Positions 414-64,000 of a stretch of 64,000 bases of DNA are shown here, piece after piece. This DNA comes from Alligator mississippiensis (taxonomy: Eukaryota > Chordata > Crocodylia > Alligatoridae). The notes below the pieces were generated by a model, which made no database searches, was not told the DNA's origin, and saw only the letters and a program-made list of their open reading frames with translations. The translations under genes were made by a program, and so were the position numbers. The first letter of the stretch is position 1, and each line of letters opens with the position of its first letter. The stretch is from positions 2,681,001-2,745,000 of the forward strand of contig NC_081828.1 of the NCBI RefSeq assembly GCF_030867095.1, in the 5' to 3' direction.

Positions 414-629
414 CTTGGAACCGGCTGCTTGGTGGCCAGGATCGCCCCGTTGCCTCTCCGCCCATCCGCGAGGTACCGCGGGGCCCGAGCCACGTCGCAA
501 TCGGCGCTGGGGAGAGGGGTTGGCTTGCCCATCTCTTGCCCATCACGGTAAAGCCCGGCCACCAGGCGCACCTGGACGACGGTGGGGTCCAAGCCCAGCA
601 GGAAGTCGTAGAAGATGGCGAAGCCGGCG
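414..629 (-). CDS. CCDC17: CCDC17 exon 11 (last exon found in the window)
   Basis: Acceptor TGCCCCTGCAG and donor GTGAGCAG. Seventy-one full codons beginning AGFAIFYDFLLGLDPTVVQV and ending KQPVP plus two bases. The next exon was not identified in 1-413 and is presumed to lie left of the window. Confidence 0.93.
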
Positions 630-15388: not shown

Positions 15389-15535
15389 TCAGGCATCATC
15401 GTCTGAAGTTTCGCTGCTACTAGTTTCTGTGTCTGAGTCCTCAAACTCTGTCTTAAAAGTGCTTCTCCATTGGGAGAACAGGCTGGAGCTGCGGCCCTGA
15501 AGAAATCCATTCTTCCCGAATCCATTTCTTCTTAG
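15389..15535 (-). CDS. GPBP1L1: GPBP1L1 last coding exon
   Basis: Acceptor CCCCTCTAG. It encodes LRRNGFGKNGFLQGRSSSLF through the acidic tail SETSDDDA and stops at TGA (15391-15389). Mammalian proteins, as I recall them, continue with Trp-Lys, so the stop looks like TGG changed to TGA. Confidence 0.95.
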   Translation of the reverse strand, partial: LRRNGFGKNGFLQGRSSSLFSQWRSTFKTEFEDSDTETSSSETSDDDA

Positions 15536-18500: not shown

Positions 18501-21500
18501 AACAGCACTGTTGTAAAACGCTGTCCCAAAAGTACTATTTAAGTGCAGACTGGCAAGGAGATTTGGAAAGTGGTTGAACATTCTTTTAAATATTGATAGT
18601 GTTCATCAGAAAAATGCCTCAGAACCTCGTGATTCTAAAAACACCACCCTTTTCCTTTGCCGAATATCTGACGTTTTCTTTTCTCATTCACTCTCCTTTG
18701 CTGTGCACTGTACACCATCTTTACTCGCAAGGAAGTACAACTATAGGGACAGTGCCCATGAGCAACTGCAGATCTAGCAGAGGCAACATAAGAGCTGTTT
18801 CTCTCCGTTACATTCCCTACCCCCATTTTAGAGAAATGATGAATAGTTTCCCCCCACCCCAATAAAAAATGTTAAGACAAAAGGTTAAAGTGTGGGTAAC
18901 ACAAAAACACAGAAGAGGTGTGGGGTAGGCACACATCAACATGCAACATGTTGAACCCTCCTGCATTTCTATTCGATATTCTCTCCCCCTAGTGACTGCA
19001 GCCCAGGAAGCAGGATTTAAACTATTACTGACAACTCTCTTTAAGTAAGGGATTAGCTGGCAGTGATGCAGTCATCTCTATTTGTGAGGCAAGCGCTTGG
19101 AATTAGGTTCCCTCCTGCTTGAAGTAAAGGTCTGACTATTGTTTCTGTGCAGAGATCCTTACGACATGCAATGCCCAGGGAAGTAGAGGGGGCAGTTTTC
19201 TTACATCATCCAATTTGTCACATTCTCTGTTCTCTGTGATCTCCCCATTCCTGTCATCTTTCAGTGCCTTCAGGAACTCGCTCTTCTTATCGGTGGGACG
19301 GCGCATCAGCTTTGTCAAGCGTGAAGAAGTGATCTCAATGGGAGGGGTGGTGCTGGAAGGACTCTGGACAGAGAAGGTGGAACACACATTAGAAACATTT
19401 TTTAATCCATTCCTGAAAAGCTGGCTCTGCTCATAGTTTGGGTTTTGTTTGCAACTTTTAATACTGTGACCAAGAGCTCCTGATCTGGCTGAATTGCCTG
19501 CAAGAGATCTCCTTTCAGATCTCCTCCAGAGTGCTTGGCTGCACTGTTCCAAATCGATTCCTTCTTCTCTCACCAGCCTGGAAGGCGAGTCTCCCAACAA
19601 GCCTTTTCATCAGTTCTGCCACTGTTTCTTCTCCTCTTAACTCATGCTGTCATGGAGCTATCACACTTGTCTTGCTCCTCACTTAATACACCGCCTGACG
19701 ATGTGAGCTATCCATCCTGGCATCACTTGAGGTTAATTCAGTGCCCCCGCCAGGAATGATGCAGGAATGCATTGATGACTCTTGCCCGTTTGCAGACGAG
19801 TCCACAGCCTCCCCTCCCTGCCCCCCACTTCTCCCTTCATACCCACTGACCTAAACAGCTCTCCAGACCTCATAAAAGCCTACCCAATTAAATTAATGAA
19901 ACCAAAGTGGTCCCATTATCCTCTGCAGCGTGTATAACAACACTGGTTGTTCAGTGGTATGTGAGCCAGCCAGATGGTAGAGCAGCTGGCATATTAGCCT
20001 TCATGTACAGTGTTACAGAGGTTTTAAACTCTGAGAATCAGGACTGATTTCAATAGACCCGTTTCATCTTTATAGTTGAGATGCACAATCAAAATTAAAT
20101 TGGAGGATATGTACCAAGTTCCCAGCTTCCTAATTTTCCCCATCGCTCCCAGTCTTCATCTACGGTATTCAAGACTGGCTGTACTCCAGAACAATGAGAA
20201 ATCCTGGGTTTTTTGAGTCTTCACTCTCCACCGAAGGAAATGTCAAAAGAGTACCTTAGAATCACATACACAAATCAACCCCTTTCGTTCACCTACGTGC
20301 TTTGACTTATCCCCCTCTTCTTACAGTATACACGGACAAGAACTACGTAAAGTAGCTTCTTGTTGCAGGATTTGGAGGGGCTTTGCAGGAACATTTCAGA
20401 GTCTTCTTGTGGGGGTGAGAAGGTTGCCAACAGATAATATGCTTAAGATGTCAAATTTACTTTGCAACGCATTCTCGGTACAGTGGACACAGCCCTTCTA
20501 AGCAGAGACAGACACAGGGGAAAAATGTTCAACAAAACAAAGGTAAGAAGAGGGCCAGTGCTGGCTTTGGTTCCTAATTCCCACTGTATACAAACGCTAG
20601 GCTGAAATAAATCTCTTCTGGAGAAGCGTGCACTATAAATGGTAATAAAATTGTGTAGTGACATGTGTCAGGCAGTCATTTCAAAACCTGTCTAATTCAG
20701 TAGCAGGAAAAGCAAACAGTTGATTGTAAAACCCCGGTTTCTGACAGGTATGGGAATGTCAGGATAAAATAAAAACCGAAGTGCTGTTGAGTTTGAAGCT
20801 GTCAGCATTAAATTAATCTACCTGTGCAAGTGACAGAAGGCGACTGAACAGAAACACAGATAATATGAAAATATGACATTTCTAGTAGATTAGAAAGCAT
20901 GTATAATGCAAGTCCATAAAGTATCTTGTGCTCTTGTCTACAGAAGCCTTTTCAAAGACAACGGTTCCGAAACGCTCACATACCAAGAACTCTATTTTAC
21001 AAACTTTAAGGGGCGAGGAGAAAGGCAACCATAAAAAGGCACCGACTGAAAAACAGACAAACCCTTGAAACTAATGTGGCTACCTTATCTGAGAAAGGAG
21101 GAAATTCACGGGCTTACATTTGTATATTCAAAATTCTTTACAGAAGGATTTTGAATTTGAAATTAAGTCATCTTTCTTTTACTGAGGGCTCCAGGCTCTA
21201 GAAACGTGGAGACTGCACATACAAAAGCTATGCGTGTCATAATAAAGAACGAGCTTTAACAATGACCACTCACTTACAAGTGAGCTGCTAAGATTGCAGA
21301 ACATGCTCTTAGGGGAAACACTGGAAAACCTACACCTCAGGGTTTTAAAAGCCAATTAGGTAAAGCACCTAAAGCATCCTCATAAGGAGTAATCGTCCCC
21401 CAATATTCAGAGAAAGGTGCTGGTGACCTAGTAGCCATCTCCCCTAATATCCAGTATGAAACAGTAACGTGTCATATGGTACCTTTCCTTTTCAAAACAT

Positions 21501-24500
21501 TTTACAGATGTATAACTTGGGTCTTCGGCACCTTTGTAAGGTGGCCGTTAGTCCTCTCTTTCCAGAAGCAGGCATTGCTTTTACTAGGTCAGTGCCAGGA
21601 TGGACTGGAATTAGATCACCGGGTTGCAATCCTGGGTTTAGACCATGTCTTTAAATAGTGGGAGGTGAAGCGGAGTAGCTGCAACTCTGCACTGATTAAT
21701 TCTAGCCTGGACAAAAATCAATCTATCTGTTTCCAGTTCAACTGATTACAGATCCTGGTGTTAGTGATGATACAGCTGGAGTGCCTTTCAACTTGTTTGT
21801 TTTCTCCTGCAAAATCATTAACAAGCAGACTGTGCTGGAAAAAGTTTAACATAATGAGGAACTTTCAGACATTTTCTAAAAAGGATTTCTCGTCTCTGAA
21901 GAAAAAAAAAAAAAAATACAGATTTTCGGCCCCAACTGCTGCCTGGTAAGTACCTTTATGTCTTTCCTACCCAGAAATTCAGACAAGAGCTACCCAAGAC
22001 AGAGTACAGTGTACTACCTGCATCAGGAAACAAGCACATGTCTATCTGAATTTGTTTTATGCTACTTATCCGGTGATGAAAGTTTATTTCACGTATGTAA
22101 CTGGTGTTGTAGCAGCACCCAAACGATCTCATATGGACACAAGGAAAAAAGTCCCCGACTCCCAAAAGGGCTTACACAATTTAAAGCGAGTCTTTTGGCA
22201 AAGAGAACAAAAGGGACAGACCACAAAATCAAAGTCAAGATGACTGGCATGTTCGTCAGTGTTGCCTTCTGCAAGAAGCTTCTTTCCAGCTTCTCCTCCC
22301 CTGAATCTGCTTGCTTCAGCAAAATTGAACTCCTACTTAAAATACTATTTGCAGTAGATTATTATCATGGCTCCCAGAGAGGAATTACTTCCATTTGAAA
22401 AGATTCTCTTTGTTCTGTAAGAAATAGTTACAGACTAAAAGGACAGCATGCGCACCAGACAGGTTCTCTTACTTGTGTTACTGCTGAGTAGATACCCAGG
22501 CATTTCTTTCAAGTTGGGGAATGACATCAAGCTGCTTGTTATTAAAATTACAAGGATCACTGTCAACAGAGTTTAACTTCTTCCTTCCGAACCATTATAC
22601 TGAACATTTAAAAAGACAGAAGTCTTGGCCAAGTAATTACTAGTTATTCTGAGGTGCTTTTAAGGATGCTGATGGTCAGAGGAAGGGCATTAACACAATG
22701 AAGATGAATGTCAAGTACAGACCCCCAAAACTGCTACACAATCATTCGTGTTTGATTTTAAGAATAAAAATTGAAATCCAGCAGATTTTTTATTTGTACT
22801 TTACTCAGTTTGGACATTAAAACGCAACTAATTAGTCTCACTTGGTTTTTACAAACTAACAAAAAGCTAATGTGTTCTGCCTCCCAGTAGCAAAGGGGAA
22901 GTTTTCACATAAATTCACTGATTCACTTTAATTCTGTGCAAGCCCAATTACCCCACACACTGTTATTAAAAGATGAAGTACGTGCACCTTGTATGACGGG
23001 TTCAATTCCAGTAAATCTGGGCAAACGCTTGCTGCAGCACTTCTTACATCAAGTAAGCCCATTGTCCATGAGTGTTTCCAGTGACGGACAGGGAATTTAG
23101 CGCAATGTGCAAAGACCTTATGACACCTGTGCGCTCTTCCAGCGTTCCCAGCTGGGTACAGACAAGATCGCCTCTAGAAGGAAACATTAGTTGAAGAAAT
23201 TCCCAACCCGACTTCTTACCTCTTTGGGAGAGGTGAGGACTGAGCCACTCGCCAGTACCGCTGGTTTGGTTACGGACACCGGACTGGTAAAGGCAGAGTC
23301 ACGGTTGGAGGAGAGTGAGCCCGGTTTATGTTCACTTCGGTTAGATTTCCATGGACTTGGCTATAGGGAAGAGAACACAACACACTAAAAAGTAAGTGGT
23401 ACAGCACAAGAGTGGGATGCTTACAAATGATATAACAAGTCAAAGCAACATCCAATTGGACTAACGAGTTGTCAGATGAACTGAACAGATTCTCTCCTCC
23501 CACTCCAAAAAGGTCTCTCAACTTCCTCATGTTTGACCCTGAGGATCCCCCTTCCTTGTCTCTCAGCACCCAGCACAGTCCATAGCGATACTTTGAATGA
23601 GAAATGGTTGGAACTGTACTAGGAACCAACTAAATGTGTCCAAAAACTGCTCCCAACCCAGAGGCAAGATCATAATTAAATTAACCCAAATTTCCTACAG
23701 AGCAGTGCTGCACACCGCCACCAAACTGACTGCATTATTCAACAGGAACTTTCCCTGGCTGAGAAGAAGAAAATCCAAAGGGTTTGTAGGCTAGGAATAA
23801 AAGGAAGGACATGGGGAAATGAAACAGTCCAGTTATGCCTTGCTTGTTCAGTGAGACACAGAAGACAACAGATATAATAAAAATCTAGAAAGAAGCCTCA
23901 AGATTTAGACTGGGAATCCAATTTACTGAGGAACAGAAGCCCATACACCAACACATTTTCTACATCAATCCTCATGCAGCTACGCAGGGGAAAATTTCAC
24001 TCTGATCCTGCTTGGTGGCAAAGCCATGACCACGGTTACAGAAAGCTGCCTTGGAAAACATATCTGCTGCATGGAAAATTATTTTCTTGACTGTCTCTCA
24101 GCCGAGAACAAACTATGCAACAGGGATCTCAAAACAGGAAGCATGGCACCAAGTATCACATGAGAAAGACGCACGATGGAGTAGGCTCTTGCTTCTACCA
24201 ACTTCATTTTAGTGAATCTTAACGTTCTGAATTAATACAGCACTAAATAAGTAGAATACTGTATTTTCCTGCATAACGTGCTCCCCGCAAATACACGCAC
24301 CTTGTTTGTGGAAGGCAGGATGTAGCAAAAGACTTTTCCAGTGTCATGGCTGACTGCATGTTGCAGTTCACTTGCCCTCAGACAGCTCAATGTTGGCTTC
24401 AAGCACAAGCTATAGCGTTAACCCCCCTCAGCCACGAAGAAATCAGCAGCTTTTGGACGCTCGGTCAAAAGCTACAGCCAATTCCTTGCTGGCTGCAAGA

Positions 24501-27500
24501 GGGTTACACTGGACTCCACCCCTGCTGTTTGCTGGCAGCGAGAGAAGTGGTAGCCATTAGAATCCAGCATCTCCATATACCTGTTCTGGCCTAGAAAAAT
24601 CAGTTCCCCTGCTGAAGTCACGCACCCCAAATTTGGAGGGCTGATTCTTTGGAAAACGGTGCATTTGGTATGCAAGTAAATACTGTACTGCCAGAGGCAT
24701 AAAGGATGAAGCTACATCTAAGCCTAAAATGGATTTTGTACTTACAGAGGAGGACAGCAGAGGCCACTGTTTCTATGGCTTAAGTACATGCAGCTCAATT
24801 ATGGCACCAAGAAGCATCATAAGGTGACCCGCTGAGCTCCCTCCTAGACGGGAGGTCATGTAGCTGAGGCAGAGCACAATGATGCTTACAGGGAGTTGCA
24901 CTAATGCACCAAACTACTTCTGGATGGAGCAAGCCCAAAGGAAACGTGCTATCTTAGTCTGGTACTGCTTAGGGCTCTACCTGAATGGTACACATACATT
25001 CAATGTGATTTCTTTCCTTTGGGCATTTATCTTTTTTTTCAGTTAAGTCTCACCAGCTCTTCTCCTTCCTCCCACCTATACTCAGGTGGGCTCAGCTAAT
25101 AAGTTTGTTTCCGCTTCGACCAAATCCCACTGCCTTATGCTTTTTCTTGCCAAAAGGAAAAAAAAAACAGGAAACAGTCCTTGTTATGCTAAAAACTTTC
25201 CATCCCATTTCATTCAAAATGAAACGAGTCATTTTCAGGAACTTGTAAGAAAGACAAAAGGAAACAAAGGGCCAGATGCACAGAACAGGTAATGGCCAAG
25301 GCATCAACATCATCCCCTTAGCTAACGGGCTGTTTGTTAGGTCACTCATCCAGGATACAGAGAATCTAGTTCAAGTCCCTTCTTTGCCTTAAGGAGACTG
25401 GAACCCACTTTCCTAACTAGAGTATACCTTAGCTACCGTGTAGTTAGGGTGTTTTGGGGTGTGGTGCTCACTCTCTCCAGTTGCAGCTGCTCTACTTCAT
25501 GCAAAGCAGGCTGGTGCCTAAGCCTTTAACCCGTTCTGAGCCTCTGACCACAGCTAATTTAAGTGACAGACAAAGAAAGAGTAGGACAGAAAAGCAAGAT
25601 GTCTTCAAAGGTGCATTTGCAATGAGTTAGTGGTGGGGGGGGCAGGGTTGAACTGATCTGGGGTCCAGAAACTTTTTTTCCCCCTTACATCAACCTGATC
25701 CTCTGTTTTAGACTTCCCTCCTACCTTAGTCTTTCTCTTTCTACAAGTCAGGAAACTGGTGCAGATTATAAGCTTCTCTGGGGTAGAAACGATGTTTTCA
25801 TTTCCTGTCTAACATATAAAATATGTGCAGTCCATTTATTTAACTTGTAATCACTGAAGAAGTCTTAGAAAACGGCAGCCCCTAAGAGCCAAATTTAGCT
25901 TAAGAACTAAAGGCAACATTCTTTGGTTATCTGCTCCTTGACCAGGGTCTTTTTGCACTGTCAGCACACACAGATCAAATTCCAAATACTTGAGGAACAA
26001 GGCATGCTGTGCAGTATTGGCCCATTAACCCTTTCTCTGTATACCATGCAAGAGAAATCACGTAAGGCACAACGTCAGCTATGCTAGCATGCACTGCGGC
26101 CATTATAAGACAGAAACAGAGAGCAGAAGTGAAAAATGACATCATGTTGTAATCGGTATTTTGGCACGAAGGTTTAGTTGTCCACCTTCTGCACCAAAAC
26201 TGCAGTGCCACTTTAGTATTCAAATCAAAGACTTCATGTTACTACATGCTCTATTAGGTCTGCACTTGAGGATCCATCCAATTGATCCACGAACTATCTT
26301 AGCAGGGTCAAAACACACTGCTAGTAGAAACCCTGGGATTCTCAAAGAAGCCTAAGTGACTTATTAGGTTATTCATTTCCAATGGATGTGGGCACCTAAC
26401 TCCTCTAAGACCTTGTGAAAATCCAAGTACAAAATACCATTTTCAAGGCACAATGAAAACAAGTTGAGTATTAGGAAAAGCTTCCAGACAAGCTGTTAGA
26501 CTGACATAGTCTTTTCCAGGAGGGAAGCCCCAGCCAAAACAGAGTGCTCTGGAGACTACTCTGCATGGAACTATTGTACATTGGCAGAGGAGAATAGGTA
26601 ACCAAATAAGCTTTCCATCTCCAGGATCTCAGATTCCACGCAATACTGCTCTGCTGGGGGATGTGCAATAAGCAAACAGGAGAAATACAACCTAACAATT
26701 GAAAAGACTAGATTTCTGGCCTTCTGCTTCAACAACTGTTTGATACCCTCATTTATCATGACAGGCACACAGGTAGGTTACACAAGATGTAAAACTGAAT
26801 ATAAAAACAGCAAATGGGAAGCTCAGTAAATATCAATCAGAAATCTACAGAATAACTTTGAATTTTTCTGGTGTTTGTAGGAAAGAGGGGTGGATGAACT
26901 TTAAAGGCAACCTGTAAAGTAGGAAAGAACTGTGCATGTGTCCCATTACAAAAATCCAAAAGGGGTTTTCCAGGTTTTTCTTTATTATAGGATAAAACAC
27001 TAAAGCTGGCCCTCATTCAGAATCACTGGATGTTTCTTTGCGGACATACACTACTAGGACAGCCCTTGTTTATCACAGCTACTGAACAGTTGGGAAGACA
27101 AGATTTTAGATCATCATACATTTGAGTTAAAGAGGTATTCCTCAGTCACAAAAAGAAAATGCCAAAATAAAACAAAGAAAGATGAATAAAAATAAAGCTA
27201 ATGGGCAAAATCCCAGATGTCTTTTGTAGGGCACCTGTAAACCTTACTTAGACTAAAACTGCATTGAAAGATTATGTTACATGATTTAGTCTAGTCTTTT
27301 GGGATGGGTCCAAACTATTTTAACCATATTGATGAATCATGTTACAATCTTGTAAGGTAGTCATGTGAACAGCCTAATCCCTGTTATTAGTTCATTTGCC
27401 TTCTGGCACCCTTTGTCTGTCTTGTCTAATTTCGGTGAATTTCTGGACCCCCTAAATCCAACAGACATTAACAAGGTTTAATCTTGTCTGAGGATAAAAC

Positions 27501-30500
27501 CAAAATGTATGGTCACAGGTGAGCGTTAAGTTACAATGCAATACACTGATAGTTTTAGCAATAGACAGGTCTTAACCCTAAAGCTCCCATGCAAATGCAT
27601 TAGCTCTGACTTGCTATTTACATTTCTTTCTTCCTTTATTTGTTGGCTATTTCCACAAAATGCTCACTCCACATGCAGTGTGCTAACCCAACGGAAAGCT
27701 CCTGTACCTTGGAAGGAGGAGCTGCAGGTTTAGGAACTAGATTTTTGTAGACACTTGGGACAATGGTGGTAGTCTTGTTGCCATTTGCCAGATGTGGAAC
27801 AGGTGATGTAAATGCAGCTGAGAAGGCGGCAGCAGGATCCTCTTTAGAAACCTTTTTGATGACCAGCATCTTGGTAGGTTGCTTGGCACTAGGAGGGTTT
27901 TCTATAAAAGCACAAAGGGAGAAAAACCTCAGAAAAAAAAGAAAGAAACCTCAGGAATTTGATAATACTTTGTTCTCTCTCCACTTCAAATCCCCCTTTC
28001 AGAAGCAAAGATGCTGGGAGAGTTCTCTGCTGGTGCTGCTATTGGCAAGTCTGGTGCTGGTTTTCAAGCAAAGAGATTACTGTATTGAAGAAAAAACAGA
28101 AAAGTCTGGTATTTTCTCCACTTGAATCAACCCATGGGAGCCCCTCTTGATTTAGCAAAAAAAGATAATGCTTGAGATAATAACAATTAATAGCCTCCTG
28201 GACTCAGGGAGGGTATGGACATACGTACTAGTATTTGTTCTGCGCAATTAGAGCAGTGAATCTCAACCAGGGTGCTGCAAGATCCTTTTATGAGTGCCAG
28301 AGGATGCTGTGCAATTTTAACCCTGTTAGGTTTCAAAACTCCTACACATGATTCACAAGAGGAACTCAGAGGTTTCAAATAAGAATCCATGTCAAAACAT
28401 TCTCACTTGTTGAGGTATTTCTGAGTTCACTGCAAGAAAAGAATTGCTCTATTATTTTTGAGTGAAAACTAAGAGCTAGCATTTTCCAAGGGATACCTTG
28501 AATCTAACAAGATTGAGACTGGGTGAACCAGAGAAGCATTTTATGTTAATTCACTAACACAGCAAGAGAAATAAGAGAAAAAAATCATACTTTACTGTCT
28601 AATCATTTGCCACCTGCCACAGGCAACACAAGTTCTCAATACCAGTAAATTGTGAAAAACTATAGCAAGGTAAACAGTTAAATGATTCAACCTTTTTCAG
28701 TAGCAGCTGATCTTGCTATTATATTGAGGAAAGATGATGAATATCTGAATCAAATTTGCAAAAAAGAACAGAACCTGGATCTTGAATCTATTTTTCTGCT
28801 CTACCAGAGAGCATCTGTTTTCTATGTACTAATATAAACGCCTCACTTACCCCACACTCCAGAAGGTGTCCCTAAAGGTTTGCTCTGGTTATTCTGTTTC
28901 CCAGCTTCTGGATTCAAAGATGGCTGTTAAAAAAATCCACAGTTGGAAATATTAAAAGACTGCATATCAAAGACACATGTACTGTGTTGGGAAGAAATTA
29001 AACTCAACAAACCAGAGGTCCTGTTTTAAAGTACTTTTACTAAACATTTAAGATATTACCCAGAATTAAATACATATTTATCTGCAGAGCTCCAGGCACT
29101 GCAGGGGTGTATTGTTAGTGCACGCACTGCTTCGAGTCCAATTCCTCATACCAGTTGCACACACAGTGCCCCACATATTTTATATATGATAGACATCTAT
29201 CACTGCACCGATATGATAATAATATCAAGAACGTATAACCTTGAATTTGATGGAGAAAATGAATATAAGCATTTATGTAGACAAGAAAGGAAAGCTGCAT
29301 TTAAGTGTTGTTCAAATTCTGACAGCATTTCAAGAGTTCATATTTTAGGCAGATATTACCACAGTAGGGCATGTTCGTTCTAACCTGACTTTTGATTTTG
29401 GTTCACAGTCTAACTTACTATAATGATTATGGATTTGTCCAAGTTAGGGGAGGAAAACAAATCCGACCCCCACAACACTCCCCCTCCCCCCCAAAAAAGA
29501 AAAAGTACCCACTGATAAAAGACCCCCAGCTAATTAGCTACTACCATGTCTTGCTATTTTTTGAAACAGATGATTGAACATTCAAAACCAAATGAATTTT
29601 CTCCTCATTCTGATACAATTTTATGTATTAGCCACTATGATTATTATAAGTAAAGCTTCTACCCATTAGCTTCTGAGAAAGCTAACATTCCTACTTTAAA
29701 AGCTGGGGGAAAATTATACTGGATCTTACCATAAGTAACAACCTTAGCTTAAAAAAAAATTCCCAGGCACTCACAAAGTACCCCAGAAGTGGCATTTAAA
29801 CTAAAACCTTGTGGGAGATATCATGGCACTTTTAGCAGATTAAGGTGCCAAAAAAAGCCGTATTTGCCTTGGATACAAGCATACCTATGTGTGATACATC
29901 CTTATTATCACCCTTTTGGGGTCTGGCTGATGGGAGAGGCTTGCGTATCACAATACTGTCTTCAGTATACAACATCAATCTGATAAAAATATGATGACAA
30001 TGTCCAACCCACAATTCAATGTCAAGAACTCCTCAGGAATTTGGGAAAACATTTAAAAGCCCCTAAGCACTACCTTCAGGATCATTCCAATAAAAACTAG
30101 AATGATCCCAGAAAGCATGGAAAAGAATGAAACGGCAGACCCCTGTCACCTACTGACGGTACCAAAATGAGCCCTGGAAAGCTATTTCTCATGGGTGACA
30201 CCTTTAATGAGGAGCCACAACTTACAAAGTCTTCTTCTTCAAACTGCAACTTCTCCTTCTCTTCCTTCTTCTCTTCCCTGGCTTCAGCAGGCAGCTTCTC
30301 TTGAAAGGCAGAACTTTTCCGAGAGTGGAAGTTGCCATTCCAGTGGCGATGGGCTCCACTTCCTCCTCCACCACGCTGGTTCATGCCATCATGACCCCGC
30401 GAAGGGCCATGCCAGCCAGGCTGACTGCCGGATAGCCCAACATGAGCTCCTTTAGAAACCCCGGAATCTACAGAGTCATGGCGAAGCAGGGAGGGCTGAT

Positions 30501-32312
30501 GCCAGCAATCTAAATGAAGGGATTAAAGAGATCAATGCTGCCAGCAAAAATCCAAAAAGCGTGAAGAACAGCCTCCGCCCCCCACCTCCCGTGGGGCCGG
30601 GTGAAGCTCCCTTTCCCCCCTTGCAGGGCCAGCGTCAGGCCAGGCTGCCTCTGCCCCCCTGTGTGTGGCTGGAAGGTGGCCCCCGTGCTGTGCTGTACCA
30701 CATCCGTGCCAGGCCCATGATTAGTCCAGGCACTGTCCATTCAGCCTGTCTGGGAAAAATGCTGGGCACCACTATTATAGAGCACACGGATCCCTTACCT
30801 CCCGCAGTTCTGAGAGGCCCATTATTGAAAAATCCATCAGAGGAGTTGTGTCGTCTGCGGCTCACGCCAAAGCGGCTCTCTCCCCGGGGAAGATGCTCTC
30901 CATGTTTCTCAAAGGTGGCTGCAGGGGACTATAGGAAGTTAAAAAAAAGAAAAAAAAGGATTAAATGAATAAGCATTCTCTAGGTCACCCTAGGAATCTG
31001 TTACCAGTGAAATAACGCTGCTAATCTAAAGAGACATCTCTGCATTAGTTTCTAGTAATTAGAACAACAGTTGCTAAGATGACAAATGTAGGAATATTCA
31101 TATGAGTGCCACAAACTTGCACGTGGCTGTACATTATCACCTCACCAAAAAAAGAGGGAGGCTCTTATAGCAGCTTTCCTTGCACAATTTTTGCAAAACA
31201 CATGCAATGCTTTCATCAGAGTCCATTTAAGGAATTTTACAACAATGCACTGCATGTTTCTAATCCCACAGAAGTGCTCAATCTCTAAAAACCACCAATG
31301 TTGATGGAGGAACAAAACCGGAGTTGTGCAAGGCCCACTCAGAAACTGCCTAGAAATTAAAAATACTTCACATGAGATGGTAAAAGGATCCTGGGTTCAG
31401 ACAGCGCGGAGGCTACAGAAGTTACAAGCTTTCAGCATGAATCATCTGTTCCAAGTTCCAAAGCATTTCCCTACCGTTCCCTACTCTACAAGATTAAAGA
31501 GCCACATCAATGTATTGCACATTTGGAAGTTATTTTTGCCCACTTTAGTTGAAATGTGAAGATGAAAGCAGTTTCATTCCTGATTCCTTTGCTCTTTAGC
31601 AACCTCATTCACTCTCGCAAAGATTCTCTGCACAGCTACTCTCACGCACAAGCAATGCAAGCTCCCACCCGAGGTCCCAAACAGACTCAGACCTTTAGGG
31701 GCGAGCGTGATCTTCCCTTCAGATCCTGTTAGCAGCAAGCAAGGCATCACAACCTAACCCCTTCCTGGTGAGATTCCACATGAAAAGCCACCCTAATGAA
31801 GGTACAGGATTCTAAGATGGAAATGAATGTCCCATTACTGGTGAGTTGCTTAACAATACCACGTTTTGAAAAGTCCAAAACAGGAAACGCTAAAAATTAC
31901 ACTCAAATTTGTACACTGCAAGCCAAGTTTTGAGGTACCTCTTTATATAAATTCCCCATGTCTACCAAACCTGGGCAGATAAAATTAACACAATAATTGT
32001 GCAAGGAAGTAAAAAATAAGAAAAAGAAAAAAAAAAAGGTAACTCTCTCTCCAAGGCAGGGAGCATAATTTGCTGAAAAAAGGTAGAAGAACAGATTTTG
32101 CATTAGCTTCCTTAAAAAGGCTACACACGAGGATTGAAGAATACTCTAAACCAGAAAGGCAGCCATGTTCAGTCCGGTAGGATGTTGGGCCCAGCTTGCC
32201 GTGGCCATGTACAGTAAGTATTAGGTTTCCAGTGCTCTGAACAGCAAGTTACCTTGGTTGACTGTGGCGTTGAGAAGTTAAGCCAGGCAGGAACAAAGTC
32301 ATGCTGCGCCAT
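15389..32312 (-). CDS. GPBP1L1: GPBP1L1, GC-rich promoter-binding protein 1-like 1 (vasculin-like)
   Basis: Ten coding exons join with consistent phases into 471 codons plus stop: 32312-32253, 30928-30799, 30509-30226, 28923-28851, 27901-27708, 23360-23220, 19363-19205, 18026-17902, 15885-15783 and 15535-15389. The protein opens MAQHDFVPAWLNFSTPQS and carries SRRRHNSSDGFFNNGPL, EKLQFEEEDFPSLNPEAGK, KMLVIKKVSKEDPAAAF, PIEITSSRLTKL, EAEHRLLKEMGWQEY and an acidic/serine tail SDTETSSSETSDDDA. These are diagnostic of the vasculin family and closer to GPBP1L1 than to GPBP1 (FFNNGPLRTAG, SKEDPAAAFSAAF). Mammalian GPBP1L1 is about 474 residues. The family is proposed to bind GC-rich promoters in the nucleus and activate transcription. 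A noncoding first exon lies at the CpG island near 54.75 kb. Confidence 0.97.
15783..15885 (-). CDS. GPBP1L1: GPBP1L1 coding exon 9
   Basis: Acceptor AATGGACCAG after a long T-tract, donor GTATGT. It encodes LLKEMGWQEYPENEENYLPL and TEDELKEFQVKSEQ, the most conserved C-terminal motif of vasculins. Confidence 0.96.
16434..17035. other. GC-rich island inside a GPBP1L1 intron
   Basis: A roughly 600-base CpG-containing block lies in otherwise AT-rich intronic DNA between coding exons 9 and 8. It contains partly repeated phrases (CTCAGCAGCAGGTTGTTCCC near 16480 and CTTCAGCAGCAGTTTGTCCC near 16830). This points to an inserted GC-rich element with internal duplication rather than a promoter, but I cannot name it. 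Confidence 0.4.
17036..17150 (-). repeat. CCCACC-type low-complexity tract, G-rich on the GPBP1L1 sense strand
   Basis: The plus strand is an irregular run of CCCACC, CCCCAC and CCATACCC words. The minus strand, which is the pre-mRNA sense strand, therefore has many GGG and GGGG runs spaced by 1-7 bases. Confidence 0.75.
17902..18026 (-). CDS. GPBP1L1: GPBP1L1 coding exon 8
   Basis: Acceptor GTTTTTCTTTAG and donor GTGAGAAG. It encodes VEGNSTPEPKENWEENCHQN and an acidic segment ending SHSLEAEH plus two bases. Confidence 0.95.
19205..19363 (-). CDS. GPBP1L1: GPBP1L1 coding exon 7
   Basis: Acceptor TTCTCTGTCCAG and donor GTAAGAAA. It encodes SPSSTTPPIEITSSRLTKLM and KKSEFLKALKDDRNG. The SRLTKL..RR.TDKKSEFLK block is a core family motif. 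Confidence 0.97.
23220..23360 (-). CDS. GPBP1L1: GPBP1L1 coding exon 6
   Basis: Acceptor CTTCCCTATAG and donor GTAAGAAG. Forty-seven codons in phase 0 with PSPWKSNRSEHKPGSLSS and DSAFTSPVSVTKPAVLASG. Confidence 0.96.
24256..24679. mobile_element. Nonautonomous DNA transposon with terminal inverted repeats
   Basis: TACTGTATTTTCCTGCATA at the left end is matched (16 of 19) by the reverse complement of TATGCAAGTAAATACTGTA at the right end. They enclose about 424 bases without a coding frame. No convincing target duplication is visible, so the superfamily is unassigned. Confidence 0.5.
27708..27901 (-). CDS. GPBP1L1: GPBP1L1 coding exon 5
   Basis: Acceptor GCTTTTATAG and donor GTACAGG. It encodes KMLVIKKVSKEDPAAAFSAA and IVPSVYKNLVPKPAAPPSK. 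The SVYK.LVPKPA.PP motif is shared by both vasculin paralogues. Confidence 0.97.
28254..28520. mobile_element. hAT-like MITE, family A, copy 1
   Basis: It begins CAGTGAATCTCAACCAGGGTG, close to the common hAT end CAGNGGTTCTCAACC. It shares its 3' part, GTGAAAACTAAGAGCTAGCA, with the copy at 41499-41791. No clear target duplication remains. Confidence 0.65.
28851..28923 (-). CDS. GPBP1L1: GPBP1L1 coding exon 4
   Basis: Acceptor TTTTTTTAACAG and donor GTAAGTG. Twenty-four codons plus one base, PSLNPEAGKQNNQSKPLGTP then SGVW. It completes the EEEDFPSLNPE motif begun in exon 3. Confidence 0.95.
30226..30509 (-). CDS. GPBP1L1: GPBP1L1 coding exon 3
   Basis: Acceptor CCTTCATTTAG and donor GTAAGTTG. 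It encodes WHQPSLLRHDSVDSGVSKG, a Gly/His/Arg-rich middle (NQRGGGGSGAHRHWNGNF) and an acidic end EKLQFEEEDF. Confidence 0.97.
30550..30776. mobile_element. Candidate GC-rich hAT-like insertion in a GPBP1L1 intron
   Basis: A GC-rich block ends ATGCTGGGCACCACT, the reverse complement of an AGTGGTGCCCAGCAT end typical of hAT MITEs. The left end CAGCAAAAATCC is a poor match. It lies between coding exons 3 and 2. Confidence 0.35.
30799..30928 (-). CDS. GPBP1L1: GPBP1L1 coding exon 2
   Basis: Acceptor CTTCCTATAG and donor GTAAGGG. It encodes SPAATFEKHGEHLPRGESRF and GVSRRRHNSSDGFFNNGPLR. The SRRRHNSSDGF core is diagnostic. Confidence 0.97.
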
Positions 32313-51985: not shown

Positions 51986-53565
51986 AACATATGGAGGAAA
52001 AGCATTGTACAAGCATCTCCCTCAAACAACAGGACTGTCCAAACGTTTTCCCTTGCAAGAAAAGGCAAAGCCTGGCCCAGGTAACATCTGCATTTGCCAT
52101 CACAGTGAAAACAACGCAAAGCAAGATATACAGCAAGGCTGACTTTGCATCAGGAGTGGAAATGGTTCAATACGGTGACTAATTTAAAAGATGACACAGG
52201 GTATTCTCAAGTACTTGTATTACTAATTAGAATAACCAGATTTGTTGTTTCTTTTCCCACCACACAAGTCACAAATCTTGCCAGTTCCCCAAACTCCTTC
52301 ATATTTACGTACTGCAATCACTATGCCTACAAAAAAGCCTGGCCTCATACACTTGTAGTCTGTTCTTCCTCTCGCTATTAATTTGTACAAACAGCCCCAA
52401 AACTTGACTTCTAGAAAGCTTTTAAGCCCCGCGTAAAGCAGGAGTTTTCCACTGAACAAGTTATTAGACCAGCCAAGTGTGAGCATACCAGGATACATTT
52501 TGATATGGTTTCAGAAATAAGACCAATAATTATCCAAAATCCATCATTTTTAACTGTTTTGGTAGAAGTTTTACTCAAGACTCTGCTCTACAATAGCTCT
52601 GTTTCCCCCTGCGCACGTTAGCATTTCGAGCAGTAACACCACCACATTAAAGCACATTATTTGTAAAACAAATCAATCTAAGGGTGGAATCTAAGTCGAG
52701 TCTTTTCCCCGGTGGATTGGAAAGAATACGCGCTTTCATTTTATTCATTATATACCGCATCTGAATTACTAAAGACATCTGCATGAAAACAATTTTTTTT
52801 TTTTAAAACCTCCATCTGTTCCTACTGCATATTTTCACTTGAAGTCCCAGCCTGGCATCTGTGGCATAGATGGCGAAAATACGTGCGTCACGCTACAAGG
52901 ACAAACATTAAAAGCAAAAAGTTCTCACTTTCATACAAATAACTAAAATAAACCAGGAAAATGCGATCGGAAAAGTTTCTAAATAGATTTTTAGAAGTTT
53001 TCTTTGGAGGCGCTAGATGCCGTTTTCCTAGCTGCGATGTGAGAGATGAACACAGAGGAAAAAAAGCTCCTCTAAAGCGAATGGTTTTACTTCCTCCTCT
53101 GCCAGGGTGGGAGGAAGCTCCGCGCTACACCTGCTCCTCCTCCGGCTCTCGCCCGGGGCTCGGCAACGCGCAGCCCCCACGACGACGGCACAGTCGTTCA
53201 ATCGCACCCGGCTACGCGTTCACCTGCGTTCATCCAGGAGGCGACACTTATCTGCCCCCGCAACTCTCCCGCGACCCAAACGTGTCTTCGTCACCAACCA
53301 GCGCTTTTTAGCAATGCCTGCAATTCACGCGCAACCTTTCGCGTCTCCCACGGAGTCTCTCATCTCGATTATTTGTGCGTTCAGCTCGGTTTAACCGTTT
53401 CTGAACGGCCCAGCTTTGAAAAAAATGCTTCTTCACGTGAAAGGGAACGCAAAAAACCCGCAATTCTTGGCTCAGAAACGAGACCTTTTATTAAACCGAC
53501 TCGGAAATGGCAACCCCCCCCTCCCCCCCCCATCTCATTTTTGGCACGCTTTCGGGCTCAATGGC

Positions 53566-54310
53566 GATTCCCATGAAAAGGTATTTAAACCCGAAAGCTT
53601 GCAAAGGCAGTTCCCATGAAAAGGTATTTAAACATGAAATCTTGCAAAGGCGGCTTCCCTGAAAAGGTATTTAAACCCGAAAGCTTGCACAGACGGCTCC
53701 CATAAACAGGTATTTAAACCCGAAAGCTTGCAAAGGCGGTTCCCATGAAGAGGTATTTAAACCCGAAAGCTTGCAAAGGTGTGAAAAGGTATTTAAACCC
53801 AAAAGCTTGCAAAGGCGGCTTCCCTGAAAACGGCATTTAAACCCGAAAGCTTGCAAAGGTGGTTCCTATGAAGAGGTATTTAAACATGAAAGCTCGCAAA
53901 GGCGGTTCCCATGAAGAGGTATTTAAACCCGAAAGCTTGCAAAGGTGTGAAAAGGTATTTAAACCCAAAAGCTTGCAAAGGCGGCTTCCCTGAAAACGGC
54001 ATTTAAACCCGAAAGCTTGCAAAGGTGGTTCCCATGAAGAGGTATTTAAACATGAAAGCTCGCAAAGAAGTGAAAAAGTATTTAAACAAGAAATCTTGCA
54101 AAGGTGGCTTCCCTGAAAACGGTATTTAAACCCAAAAGCTTGCAAAGGTGTGAAAAGGTATTTAAACCCCAAAACTTGCAAAGGTGGCTGCCCTGAAACC
54201 GGTATTTAAACCCGAAAGCTGGCAAAGGCGGCTCCCGTGAAGAGGTATTTAAACCCGACAGCTTGCAAAGAAGTTCCCCTGGAAAGGCTGCGAAGCCCGA
54301 AAGCTTGCGA
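53566..54310. repeat. Minisatellite, ~18 units of 36-44 bp with higher-order pattern
   Basis: Each unit contains GGTATTTAAACCCGAAAGCT followed by TGCAAAGG. The TTTAAAC core recurs near 53583, 53624, 53668, 53711, 53753, 53789, 53833, 53875, 53920, 53955, 53999, 54042, 54077, 54121, 54157, 54202 and 54245, with a decayed last unit near 54280. Full units are 42-44 bases and short ones about 36. The spacing series 36, 44, 42-43 occurs twice (53751-53875 and 53918-54042), showing a roughly 166-base higher-order duplication. It lies in GPBP1L1 intron 1, about 400 bases from exon 1. Confidence 0.95.
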
Positions 54311-54724
54311 AGAAGCCTGCAGAGGCCGGGGGTCGCGGCGCCGGGTGCTTTGCTGCACAGGTCCGGGAAGCCGCGCGCGTGCCAGGGCGGCTGGCACGGA
54401 GAGGCGCAGTGTACACGCGGCAGTGTGCCAGGGCTGCTCCCCGGGAAGGCGCTGAGAGGGGACCGCCTGCGCGGAAGTTTCCCCGGGCACGGTGCTGAGC
54501 CGCGAGCGGCTGCCGTGAGGCGGGATTGAGCCCCGGCGGCGCTGGGGTCGGGTCGGGGTCGGGCAGGGCGCGAGGCCTCGGGACTGGGGCCCGCTCCGGC
54601 CGGGACCCGCGGCTCGGTCGGTCGCTCGGGGGTGGGGATGGTGGTTCCCCGGCCGGCGGGACCCCGCGCCCCGCCCGCCAGCCCCGGGCGCCGCGCCCCG
54701 CGCCCCCCCCGCGCCGCTACTCAC

Positions 54725-54790
54725 CGGCCGGGCCCGCGCGCCGCCACCATAACAAAGCTCGGCCCAAAATGGCGGCGCGGCCCTGCCCGG
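54725..54790 (-). other. GPBP1L1: GPBP1L1 noncoding exon 1 (3' part; 5' limit approximate)
   Basis: On the minus strand CGCGGGCCCGGCCG is followed by the donor GTGAGTAG (GT at 54724-54723). It lies just downstream of GC boxes and an AAAATGGCGGC element. It is the best candidate for the first exon, spliced to the exon at 32367. Confidence 0.7.
54766..54776 (+). promoter_or_regulatory. YY1-type element
   Basis: AAAATGGCGGC matches the classical YY1 core found at or just after start sites of CpG-island promoters. A second one in opposite orientation (CCGCCACCAT) lies at 54741-54750. Confidence 0.65.
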
Positions 54791-54883
54791 CCGGGGGCCG
54801 GAGGGGGCGGGGCGGGGCCACGCCCACCGCCGCGGGGGCGGGGCCCGGCTCGCGCGTGCGCGGAGGGAGCAACGCCGCTCGAG

Positions 54884-54902
54884 ACTACGCGCCCCAGCAT
54901 GC
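54884..54902 (+). promoter_or_regulatory. ZNF143/Staf-type site (SBS)
   Basis: ACTACGCGCCCCAGCATGC agrees with the long ZNF143 motif ACTACNNNNCCCAGCATGC at every fixed position. Such sites are enriched in bidirectional housekeeping promoters. Confidence 0.75.
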
Positions 54903-54979
54903 CGCGCGCACGTGGGGGGGGGCGTCCTACCTGTCCTTAAAAGGGACAGACGCGCTTTTGCATGCGGCGACTCCCCTCT

Positions 54980-54987
54980 CCTTATAA
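54980..54987 (+). promoter_or_regulatory. TATA-like CTTATAAG palindrome
   Basis: CTTATAAG sits upstream of purine-rich sequence on the TMEM69-proximal side. It could position a plus-strand start, but CpG-island genes often lack a functional TATA box. Confidence 0.25.
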
Positions 54988-56410
54988 GTGTGTGCGGAGA
55001 AGGAGGAGAGCTGAAGTCAAACAAGCAAACAGGCTGATAGGAAGCGCGAGGACGGCCCTGCCCCTGGGCGGAACTCGAGTGCCAAGTCCGTGCTCCCAGC
55101 CGGGACACGGGGGGGGGGGGGGAAGCGCACGTTTCCTGCCGGAAGCTTCCCCGAGAGCACCGGAAGCGGTTGTTGCTGCTGCGGGCCCACGTGGGCGGTG
55201 GGAGTGCGGAGCCGGCGTGGAGCAGCGACGTGGTGTGTCGGCTCGGACCCCAGCCCAGGACCCCCTCGCGGGCATCCCCCCCCGAGCGCTGCACCCCGCA
55301 GACCTGCTTTGTACTCAGTCAATCGTAGACGGGGAATATAGCTACATCATGTATTTACAGTGTCAATACCGATCTATTGATTTGGAAGGACTTCTTCGAG
55401 GTGACGCTGCTGGACTTTTTGAAGGGCACTTGGCTGGAGTCTCGGCGGCAGGTTTTTCTGGAGTCTCGTCGCCTTTCTGAAAGGAAGCGGCCAAGGCCGT
55501 TTCGACAGACGTTCTCCGGGGAGATGGGCAACGCAGCAGACTTGTCCAGTCGCTTCGAGCGCTGTGACGTCAAAACTGATGTTGGGAAGTCGAAACGGCG
55601 TCAACTCATAAACGTCGTGAGTGCCGTTCGTTGTAACTTGAAACGTCTCACGTGGAAAACTGCCTCTGTAAGTGGGGGATGCTTGGCGACAGGATGCAGC
55701 ACGGGTCAGCGCTCTTCGTCCATACACACGACCCCAAACCAGAAGAAGATGGAAATGGTGAAGAGAGCTAACTGCACGTGAGGCGTAGCACAGGCAGGCA
55801 GATGCGGGAACAGGGATAGAAAGGAGGCGGCACAGTCCTGATCGGCTCTTCTCGGATTGTATTTCTCAGCTAGCTCCTCTGAGCCTTTTGGACACGGCAG
55901 GATGCAGGTCTGAAAAATAATGATCTGCTTAACTATCTGTAGACGAAACGGTTTCTCTGACTGTTGTTCCAACAGACTAAACCAGATGCAGTAACTTTGG
56001 TGTGTCTCATGGTAGAGCTTGGTTACCCTGCTGAGTACAAGCTACTGCCTGAATGGACTCATGATTTTGGGTTTTTTTTCCTTCTTTTATTCCTTTAGGC
56101 TGTGGGGCCGAGCTGTGTGGCCACCAGGCGCGTCCACAGGTGGTGGGTAGTGGAATGACCTTCAGGGAAGGTTAGCTGTGAAATAAGCAATCGTAGACTC
56201 CACCAGGATGTGAGGAGAGCAGATGGTAATGCTTTCTCTCCTGAAAAGCCACCTGTATCCTTTGACGGTACTACTGTGACACGGTGAGTGGAGGTCGCCA
56301 CTGTAATAAGCCTGCCTAGTCCCCAGCCATGGGTCTGCAAGTCCTCAATGCTGAAGTAGGCAGAAGATGTTATAACTCAATGGCTGCGAAGGGAGATGAA
56401 GGCTGTAGCA

Positions 56411-56561: not shown

Positions 56562-57469
56562 CTGTAGCAGAACAAGATCCCCGGTTGCCTTGGTCTCTTT
56601 GCCATTGCATCAAAGTCCTGTTCTGTTAAGAGCTGCATGAAAGCTGATGTGCAGCAGCTTCTCCACAATAAAAAGATGTCTTCCATTTCCTTAAGGCCTG
56701 CTCATAAGGCAGATGTTTCCCCTTACAGTGATGTTACTTCTCTGCACCTTTCAAACTAAGTCTCTAAAGTGGTATGTACCTTGTCCAGAAATAATTAAAT
56801 AGAATGGAAAGGGACTTCTGTATTAAACACTATTGGCTTCTGTTTTATAGCAGATGGGTTTCATTTTCATCACGCTTAATTTTTCCAAGTGACTTTTCCC
56901 GCATTTGTACAGTGTACAAGAGTGCAAAGCATTTTTCTCCCTAAATGCTTGTCTGGTATCTGCCAATAGTCTGTTCCTCCATTTGAATCCCAGCTCAACC
57001 ACGTGGCTTCACTGTAGGCCTACTACTACATCCATCACTAGTAACTGACTCCTGTTAACATCAGAACATGTAAACCTGTGTTTAGCTGCAGCTGTACTGG
57101 TTAGTGGGATTTCACAGCTGTAGCTACCAATGGATTTAGATATAAAGGATGCATGATGGCAGCTGGCACCTCAAAATTCCTCTTTAAAACTATTGTAATG
57201 ACACAGCCATGAAATTGTGATCTAGAGACAAGACATTAAGAATAAGTGTCTGACTTGCCCCTTTTGATCGATACAAAGAAGGGCCAGCGAGGTGGGGCTT
57301 AAGTGAAGGGAAGAATGAAAAAAAACCCCAAACTGTTAATAGAGTATTTGACTCTTCTTAAAAGTTTTTAGAACATGGCTTAAATTCTAGACTGGGTACA
57401 TCCAATTGGCTCTCCTAGTGAACAAATGCTAGTTAGACACTCCTAATAATTTCTGTCTTTGCAGCTCCA

Positions 57470-58150
57470 GAAGTTGTCTCTTCACAGACTGCTGCAACAC
57501 TGAAAGAATAAGATCACTTGCTCTTCTCTCTGTGTCTACCTGCAGGGAACCTTGTCCCTTCCTTCAAAATGCCAACTCTTCATCCAGGCACCAGCATGCA
57601 AAACCATGGATTGGGGCTTCAACATCTCCCCTCACTACTTGAAGAAACCAGAACCCCAGAAACTGGGCCTACTGCGATCCGATATGAAGACCACTAAAGA
57701 AGTCTCCAAAGCCAGCCGTTTACCTCAGACTCGTGGGGCTGATTCCATTTGTTTCAGTGCCAGTGGTAAAGGTCATCCAAAAGACTTACCACCCTGAGCT
57801 GGCATTTACTCAGGTTTCCTGTGAAGCCTGTATAATCTTTTTTCTAGATAGAAACCTGGTGAGGATTTGCTGTCCCAGAACACAGCCCTACGAGTCCAGA
57901 TTAGCTGAATTTGGCCATATGTACAGTTCCTCCTTTTAATAGCCTGGCTTGCTTTACTCTTCTGAAATGACTTCAGTGAAGCTGCAGTCATGTTGATAAT
58001 TGGTTTAGGCATAGCAAAACATTATGACCTTGCCCTCCTTCCTACTTATCCTTGTTGATTGATTTAAAGCTCAAAGGGGAATTTTAACAGCACTGGCTGT
58101 ACTTTGGCAGTGCTGGCTGACACGGCATAGATGACCAATCTTCCAGAGAA
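57470..58150 (+). pseudogene. TMEM69: TMEM69 unitary pseudogene (decayed at the syntenic locus)
   Basis: Between GPBP1L1 and IPP, on the plus strand as expected, pieces of a TMEM69-like protein appear in changing frames: KKPEPQKLGLLRSDMKTTKE; then, after an extra base near 57702, SPKPAVYLRLVGLIPFVSVP and KTYHPELAFTQ; then, after a shift near 57850-57862, GFAVPEHSPTSPD and LNLA, separated by a TAG at 57902; then, after another shift near 57966, DFSEAAVMLIIGLGIAKHYD and LALLPTYP; then TGA at 58056; then, after a 4-base TTGA duplication, FKAQRGILTALAV. TMEM69 is a small multi-pass membrane protein, probably mitochondrial. No intact start exon was recognised. At least four frameshifts and two nonsense codons make function as this protein very unlikely unless the assembly is wrong. 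Confidence 0.85.
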
Positions 58151-59817
58151 GCAATTAAGTAACAGAGAAAAATAAGAGCAAATGAAAACAAAACAACTCA
58201 ACAGAAGAGACTTGTTAGATGTTTCTGTATTGTGTCTTAGTGGGAATATAATGTTTCACCTCCTTCCACTTCCAGCCTAGAACCTTAACTGGAAATTGGA
58301 AGCCAGCAATATACAAAGCAGTGCATTTGAGATCAAAGGCAAAGAAGGACTTGCATCTGTCACCATTAAGACTGTTTTCAAGACATGTGCACCTTCCCTG
58401 AGTGAGGTTTTAGGATCCTGCTGCAAAACAAGTCTTCAAACTGAATTGCTCAGTTTCAATATTAAAGTGGTGATGGGGATAGGTGGTTTAACTGAAGTGT
58501 GACAAGTTCTGCAGCAGGAAGAATGAACTCACAGCTTTCATAAAGATTACACATCTTTTGGAGAAAAGCCCTGTTCGTTCTCCCTGAGTGGAACAACACC
58601 TGCAGTGTAGGTGCTTTTGATGACTGGAAGGAGCTGTGCCAGGTCATAGTATATTCAGCAGTTTTTCTGGAAATGCTGGCTATGAATTGCTCAATGCAAC
58701 AGGTAAAAGCAACTCTTCCCTTGCCCAACTTCAACTGAAGAGAAATCGAAGAGTTATTGGTAATTATGAGTTAATAATAATATAATGAATGCAGTACACA
58801 AAAGGTGTCAAGCTGAGATCAGTGCTTACCTCAGTAATGTCAACTAAATGTGGTTAACTGTACTTCACCTGTTTAAAAAAAAAACGAAAGTAAGTGGACC
58901 TTCTCTAAGATGCCTCCTGTAACAACTACGTACTGGCTTCCAACACAAAGATCCTTCTCATTAAAGTTAACTAAGGACCCAATCCAGGCTGAACATGCAC
59001 TTCAGGGTTAATCACTCTCTTCCCCACCTTCCCGACAACCTTAGCTAAAAAAGTGCACTGGCACAAGGAGAGCTACTCATAAGATTTGGCAGAAGGCTTG
59101 GGGCTCGAGTCTTTTTTTTTTTTTTTTTTGTAAAGCAAGCTAGTTTGTTCTCCTGCGTGAGCTGAGCAACTACGTTCTAGGCTGGTCAAGAGAATGCAAA
59201 TGTACTAAGTAGCAAATGTCAACCCTGCATCACAGGTGTTCATGATAGTCTTCTCTTGCCCCTCATTCCTGTTACAGCCAGCGAGAGCAGAAATTTAAGT
59301 GGGGAGGGACTATGTACATTTTCAGTTGTGGTCTAGTATTCCTACGTGCAGGTGCACATGCTAGAAGATAGAAAGATAGCAATCAGTGGGTATTTAAGAA
59401 TGAGTTAAAGAAGTTTTACTAAATGCTAGTTTCCAAGGGAATAGAGGGAAATGTTCACTACTGTAAGGTCTGCAGTTTAATAAAGTTACTTCCCTACACT
59501 ACTTCTGCAGCTGTAAATTTCCTTGTTCCTTCAATAGAACAATGAGTCTTTCACTTCTTTTTAAAGTAAGTGAGTTAAAATTAGGGTTTCAGTCAGAAGG
59601 ACTTCAAAGACTTATGACTTATTCATTCTGACACAAACACAATAACTTGACAAGCCTGTATCTCTTAAAAATAGCAACCATAAGTCCCAATTCCTGCAGA
59701 ATACTGGCTGCATACTTCAGACTCCAGGATTTTCATTTAAAGTTTTGTTAACATTTTTGCACCTTTAATTACAGGGTTGCCTCTGGGAACAGAGTTCATT
59801 TCAAGCTTTCGTTATTT
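58151..59817. other. TMEM69-IPP intergenic region, left part
   Basis: No gene recognised. It has a poly(T) run at about 59111-59130 and otherwise AT-rich unique-looking sequence. Confidence 0.5.
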
Positions 59818-60200
59818 CATAGATTTCATAGACATTAGGGCTGGAAGGGACCTCGGAAGATCATCAAGTCCAGCCCCCGCCCGAAGGGCAGCAGGCCAGC
59901 TGGGGTCATAGGATCCCAGCAAGATAAGCATCTAATTTACTCTTGAAGGTGTTCAACGTAGGTGCTTCAACCACCGCTGCTGGCAGGCTATTCCAGACCT
60001 TGGGGGCTCGGACAGTAAAGAAATTCTTCCTTATACCCAGCCTGAAATGGTCTTGCAGGAGTTTATAACCGTTCGATGTCATCATCCCTTGGGGCCCTCT
60101 GGTGAACAGATGTTCCCCCAGATACTGGTAGTCACCACTGATAAACTTACAGGTTATGGAGGAAGTAAAGTGCAATTTGCAAACAGGCACACAGGATGAG
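59818..60200 (-). mobile_element. CR1 LINE, 3' fragment
   Basis: The plus strand starts ATTTCATAGATTTCATAGAC and GGCTGGAAGGGACCTCGGAA, the CR1 3' terminus in antisense with its short terminal repeat. The minus-strand translation FRLGIRKNFFTVRAPKVWNS then LPAAVVEAPTLNTFKSKLDA is the reverse-transcriptase C-terminal tail. It belongs to a subfamily distinct from the copies at 6.5 and 40.1 kb. Confidence 0.92.
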
Positions 60201-62177: not shown

Positions 62178-62402
62178 TCAGAGCACTGCCACGCCTCCTT
62201 CGCAGCGGCTGGTGATCATGTTGGCTATTTCAGTCCAAGTGTCCAGATGAGGGTTATAAACTTCCACGGTGTCGGAGGTTACCGGGGCAGCAAAATCGTG
62301 ACTGGAAGCTCGACCTCCTACGGCATACAGAAGTCCGTTTACAGCTACCACGCACACTCCAGCTCTTGGCACCTTCATTGATGCAACTTCAACCCACTTC
62401 TC
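62178..62402 (-). CDS. IPP: IPP (KLHL27), last coding exon, partial gene
   Basis: Acceptor CCTCTCTCTTCAG at 62403-62415, phase 0, 74 codons and a stop. The product EKWVEVASMKVPRAGVCVVA, VNGLLYAVGGR, SDTVEVYNPHLDTWTEIANM and ITSRCEGGVAVL is a terminal kelch repeat, with the GG doublet, the YNP turn and the spaced Trp typical of a beta-propeller blade. The ending agrees with what I recall of IPP, and IPP is the kelch gene expected next to TMEM69 and GPBP1L1. IPP is a BTB-BACK-kelch protein thought to bind actin and possibly act as a CUL3 adaptor. Upstream exons lie right of the window. Confidence 0.88.
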   Translation of the reverse strand, partial: EKWVEVASMKVPRAGVCVVAVNGLLYAVGGRASSHDFAAPVTSDTVEVYNPHLDTWTEIANMITSRCEGGVAVL

Positions 62403-63254: not shown

Positions 63255-64000
63255 CCCACAATGTCCTCATGGTCAAATTGGGAAAATGCGGCCTCCACTA
63301 CTTCATGGTCTGGTGGCTAGGTAACTGGCTCCCTGGCAGGACCCACAGGGTACTGATTGATGGAACAGAGTCATCAAGGCACATGGTGACCAGTGGCGCC
63401 TCTCGGGGTTTGGTATTCGGACCAGTGCTCTTCAACATGTTCATTAACGATTTGGATTCATGTATTATAAGCAATCTGGCAAAGTTTGCTGACACCAAAC
63501 TATGGGGGAGTGTGGTGACGCCCAAAGACAGGCTGGCAATACAGCATGACCTGGACAGGTTTGTGAAGTGGGCGGACCTCAACCTGATAACGTTTAATAC
63601 AGAGAAACGTAAAGTGATCCACCCAGGCAGAAATAACCCACAATACACTTACAGGCTCAGCAGTGGTAGGCTTGCCAGCACCACAACTGAGTGAGACCTA
63701 GGTGTCATGATTGACAGCAAAATGAACATAAGCCACCAATGCAATGCCGTAGCTGCATGCAGAGCTAACCAAACACTGGCATGCAACCACCAAGGCATCT
63801 TGCGTAAGGCAAAGGATGCCATCCTCCCACTCTACTTGGCCTTGGTGAGACTGCAGCTGGAGTACTGCGTCCAGTTCTGGGTGCCACCCTTTAAGAAGGA
63901 TGTGGAGAAGCTTGAGAGAGACCAGAGGAGGGCCACACATGATTCGAGGCCTCCAGACCAAGAGGCATGAGGAAAGGCTGAAAGACTTGGGACTGTTCAG
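63255..64000 (+). mobile_element. CR1 LINE reverse-transcriptase fragment, antisense in IPP intron, runs off right edge
   Basis: The plus-strand frame reads NWLPGRTHRVLIDGTESS, FGPVLFNMFINDLDS, KFADTKLWGSVV, DLDRFVKWADLNLITFN and LPLYLALVRLQLEYCVQFWV, the palm, thumb and C-terminal region of CR1 reverse transcriptase. It is inactive. The FADD catalytic motif has lost one Asp (FAD-T), an in-frame TGA sits at 63692-63694 before DLGV, and a frameshift follows near 63937, after which MIRGLQTKRHEERLKDLG continues in another frame. The 5' end is truncated near 63255. Confidence 0.93.

Follow-up and report, generated by a model that had tools for sequence, protein, structure and literature searches.

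The stretch of DNA beside GPBP1L1 in the genome of Alligator mississippiensis raises the question of whether TMEM69 has died at its native position, as a first-pass annotation of the sequence had claimed, and, if so, whether a working copy survives elsewhere and how far back the loss may reach. We analysed a window of 64 kb (C5:2681001-2745000), taken from an assembly of 2.35 Gb in 195 contigs, and found a broken TMEM69 on its plus strand, in the interval between GPBP1L1 and a kelch exon (Table 1). A unitary pseudogene is the lineage-specific loss of a single-copy gene, dead at its own place. Judging from the sequence, we consider it highly probable that TMEM69 has become one here, standing at its own position and likely long inactivated in a crocodilian lineage.

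Table 1. Features of the TMEM69 locus, in positions of the 64 kb window.
Feature	Position	Strand	Basis
CCDC17	413-10549 (about 0.4-10.5 kb)	-	sequence comparison; stop-free pieces
GPBP1L1, left neighbour	15386-32312	-	ten tblastn pieces; query residues 138-159 without match
CpG-island-like stretch, between GPBP1L1 and TMEM69	54560-55260		G+C 0.75, CpG observed/expected 0.95
TMEM69 coding exon 1 remnant	56713-56755	+	frameshift-aware alignment; N-terminus match
Lost splice donor, CTAAGT for expected GTAAGT	56756-56761	+	sequence; expectation from donor consensus
Retained intron, intact AG acceptor (57463-57464)	56756-57464	+	alignment and sequence
TMEM69 main coding exon remnant	57465-58160	+	frameshift-aware alignment; tblastn pieces in several frames
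Decayed DUF3429 domain, including destroyed GGxRWG stretch (57847-57865)	57703-58112	+	Pfam and frameshift-aware alignment
Kelch exon, right neighbour; putatively the final coding exon of IPP	62187-62402	-	Kelch_1, E 6.5e-15; open over 72 codons

The identity of the remnant was established by searching its read-through translation against a database of 5.8 billion proteins at E <= 0.001. All 29 proteins matched carry PF11911, the best of them being box turtle TMEM69 (E 6.1e-49, 55% identity, 90% coverage), and the similarity to TMEM69 runs along the full length. Every match that bears a name is called TMEM69; eight or so are unnamed, and one fish protein is listed as "hypothetical" in one source and as TMEM69 in another. 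The open piece at 57688-57939 matches the Pfam family DUF3429 with E 6.7e-5 and a score of 23.6 bits, below the curated cut-off of 39.1 (intact turtle and rhea TMEM69 reach 153.1 and 145.1 bits), and since this piece is a mere fragment of the domain, its score concerns working membership of the family and not ancestry. A search of Rfam returned no match. These comparisons, with matches far beyond chance, confirm at the level of sequence that the slot beside GPBP1L1 carries a decayed TMEM69, as had been claimed.

The remnant also lies in the orthologous position, adjoined by GPBP1L1 and CCDC17, and by IPP only through the kelch exon. The NASP-CCDC17-GPBP1L1 neighbourhood is said to contain TMEM69 in most vertebrates (PMC4082323). 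We take the kelch exon, named from its Kelch_1 match only, to be the end of IPP. GPBP1L1 was located with the human protein as the tblastn query, and its ten pieces contain just one stop, which occupies the last codon but one. There, in the final piece (15386-15535, minus strand), TGA stands where the human protein has its penultimate Trp, and GPBP1L1 may thus end two residues early in this genome. Over 17% of the query, the window's CCDC17 shares 90% identity with a protein of Gavialis gangeticus, with turtle proteins covering the same share at 69-71% identity, and a second stretch agrees with gharial at 26 of 27 residues; by this measure the genome very likely belongs to a crocodilian other than the gharial. 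Only one crocodilian protein is named among the 108 matches to this CCDC17 (gharial, 261 aa, two member sequences), and the gene may be poorly annotated in crocodilians. The CpG-rich stretch would be a promoter common to GPBP1L1 and TMEM69; directly upstream of it lies a minisatellite (53559-54312), in which a 43-base unit recurs about 18 times with 77% matches. Two further stretches, 59810-60160 and 63300-64000, resemble what we take to be pieces of CR1 retrotransposons, and a 37-base string from the former occurs once in the window.

Both coding exons of TMEM69 can be recognized. When its N-terminus was compared with both strands of the 64 kb, exon 1 scored best (43.6, with a runner-up at 34.5 and a maximum of 33.1 among ten shuffles of the plus strand), and it is placed where it would be expected. 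Its reading runs from MFPL through a codon of which a single base remains, then Q and a TGA, to CYFSAPFK; the curtailed codon marks a loss of two bases at 56725, and the stop lies at 56729. A processed copy was ruled out, since the intron has been retained.

Lesions were called by aligning the DNA, with frameshifts allowed, against a profile built from 11 intact TMEM69 proteins of turtles and birds. Across the two exons this gave seven stop codons, together with six frameshifts that we trust, and the reading frame is thus disabled. Beyond the stop in exon 1, stops stand in the main exon at 57501, 57860, 57902, 57963, 58056 and 58128; those at 57860, 57963 and 58056 sit in codons aligned as insertions, and the four others of the seven replace an aligned residue. 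The trusted frame changes comprise those at 56725, 57690, 57853 and 57932, together with the TTGA repeat (58059-58062) and one at about 58099, the last being trusted because the frame downstream of it reads PEKQLSN, as in turtles. Frame changes at 58161 and 58180 were set aside, as they fall in the C-terminal tail, which is variable and through which the alignment was made to run to its very end. Much of this damage had been noticed in the first-pass annotation: its extra base near 57702 is real and is placed by us at 57690-57693, its shift near 57855 falls at 57853 and is joined by the TGA at 57860, and its TGA at 58056 and TTGA duplication both stand. Its Tyr-to-TAG change at 57902 was right about the stop but not about the residue: of 19 intact proteins, the 16 from turtles, birds and squamates have Trp here and the three from mammals have Phe; likewise, a frame change reported near 57966 exists but lies at 57932, with a TGA at 57963. 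The TGA at 57501, the frame change at about 58099, the TAG at 58128 and the whole of exon 1 had gone unmentioned.

We then have to ask whether such lesions could be sequencing or assembly errors within a working TMEM69. Several of them are small indels, which are a frequent type of error. Nineteen amniote proteins (3 turtles, 8 birds, 5 squamates and 3 mammals), picked by eye from 148 fetched TMEM69 proteins, served as the intact reference set. They share 56 invariant columns, of which the remnant retains 43, while each intact protein, when left out in turn, retains 56 of 56-59. Among the invariant residues whose codons are whole in the remnant, 12 of 55 have been replaced through base changes, which sequencing error alone is insufficient to explain. 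The contrast holds when whole clades are left out: turtles retain 58-61 of 62 columns and the remnant 45, birds 59-62 of 67 and the remnant 49, squamates 61-64 of 67 and the remnant 50, although for mammals (57-60 of 73, against 55 for the remnant) it is weak. Within the DUF3429 domain, the remnant has 80 of 136 residues in common with turtle, where rhea has 102 and flamingo 99. Selective constraint thus appears to have been lost, if weakly so when measured against mammals as a clade. Moreover, stops and indels are scattered across both exons, and the adjoining coding pieces of GPBP1L1, CCDC17 and the kelch exon are free of comparable damage. An artefact of sequencing is hence rejected on the base changes at invariant sites, and we regard it as extremely improbable; the earlier judgement that this is decay and not a single sequencing error is upheld.

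It could also be argued that the locus is a relic, and that relocation or duplication has placed a working TMEM69 at another site in the genome, given that assemblies are never complete. A search of the whole 2.35 Gb assembly with turtle TMEM69 gave three matches at this locus and nothing significant elsewhere (one match on C1 had E 0.81), and all four matches of rhea TMEM69 fell at this locus. The decayed locus was itself detected at E 7.1e-16, and an intact copy should therefore score far better. The assembled sequence, as probed by these two proteins, thus holds no other working TMEM69; we have rejected the relocated copy on these searches, and consider it very improbable. Still less probable, in our estimation, is that the remnant remains in use as a non-coding RNA or a shortened protein. 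The CpG-rich stretch upstream persists, the acceptor of the main exon is intact and an open stretch of 83 codons spans part of the domain, but that stretch has no ATG before its conserved part, the GGxRWG stretch is destroyed and GPBP1L1 alone can account for the CpG-rich stretch.

We therefore return to a gene dead at its native locus, the claim from which we set out, and borne out by the seven stops, the six trusted frameshifts, the retained intron and the replaced invariant residues. Intact TMEM69 (DUF3429, PF11911) of turtles, birds, squamates and mammals shows the same sequence along nearly its whole length, the same two coding exons in alignment and the same gene neighbourhood; the remnant differs in its broken frame in both exons, its missing donor and its replaced invariant residues. 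It resembles unitary pseudogenes generally in its native position, its retained intron, its many lesions and the lack of a second copy in our searches, and we saw no feature that would set it apart from them. We suggest that selection on TMEM69 would have been relaxed, that a first disabling mutation would then have been fixed, and that the exons would afterwards have decayed at an approximately neutral rate, with the adjoining GPBP1L1 staying in use. The animal likely lives without the TMEM69 protein.

From the 43 of 55 whole-codon invariant residues that were kept, we estimate a neutral divergence since the loss of 0.115 (0.062-0.195, kappa 2). At a rate of 3.9e-10 per site per year (PMC4299795, PMC4263362), this corresponds to 295 (160-500) million years. 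At 1e-9 per site per year, which is our assumption for a faster ancestral lineage, it corresponds to 115 (62-195) million years. Birds and crocodiles split more recently than 295 million years ago, and the older value predates that split, so the rate was probably once higher, or some of the changes preceded the loss. The neutral model must also be considered rough, since at a divergence of 0.1 it expects 2.3 stops and seven are observed, four of them at aligned residues. The alligator-crocodile split is put at 97-103 million years ago in PMC4299795, and the loss likely came before it, judging by these divergences, with the lower age bound at the faster rate being younger than the split.

The loss is perhaps common to all crocodilians. 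No crocodilian TMEM69 is among the 29 read-through matches, although the database does contain the gharial CCDC17 protein; as that search drew only 195 candidates and had one bird among its matches, the missing crocodilian match is informative for close relatives only, of which a crocodilian TMEM69 would be one. Birds do retain the gene, as a search with mousebird TMEM69 found 779 proteins and, among the matches listed, 120 of 120 were avian. On balance we lean towards a single loss that predates the divergence of living crocodilians some 100 million years ago, which would leave the whole order without TMEM69.

What kind of protein was lost can be sketched from its relatives. Intact TMEM69 consists of a variable N-terminus followed by one DUF3429 domain, and the model of the turtle protein shows several long helices with moderate confidence (mean pLDDT 63.8). 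A fold search of this model against the PDB gave no match at E <= 0.001 (best E 0.11), a sequence search of the PDB for a solved relative gave a single match at E 0.44, and no function for TMEM69 was found in the literature searched. BCMIMP1 of Botrytis cinerea is, like TMEM69, a membrane protein with DUF3429; fused to GFP it was mitochondrial, with the inner membrane as its predicted location, and according to its authors it was the first member of the family to be characterised (PMC4767927). By this analogy, the lost TMEM69 would have resided in the mitochondrial inner membrane, yet BCMIMP1 is a distant fungal member and offers no direct information on the vertebrate protein.

Unitary pseudogenes as a class are well known, and the TMEM69 case is a real one; the loss of TMEM69 seen here is undescribed in the literature searched. 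It would add a lesion-documented gene loss for crocodilians, a slowly evolving group. If the loss is order-wide, then crocodilians lack a membrane protein, probably mitochondrial, which has been retained by birds, turtles, lizards, amphibians, fishes and mammals, and they would be a natural knockout from which the role of TMEM69 may be learned. A vertebrate lineage without the gene would offer a clean comparison, in which genes that shift their rate or vanish alongside TMEM69 would become candidates for its pathway.
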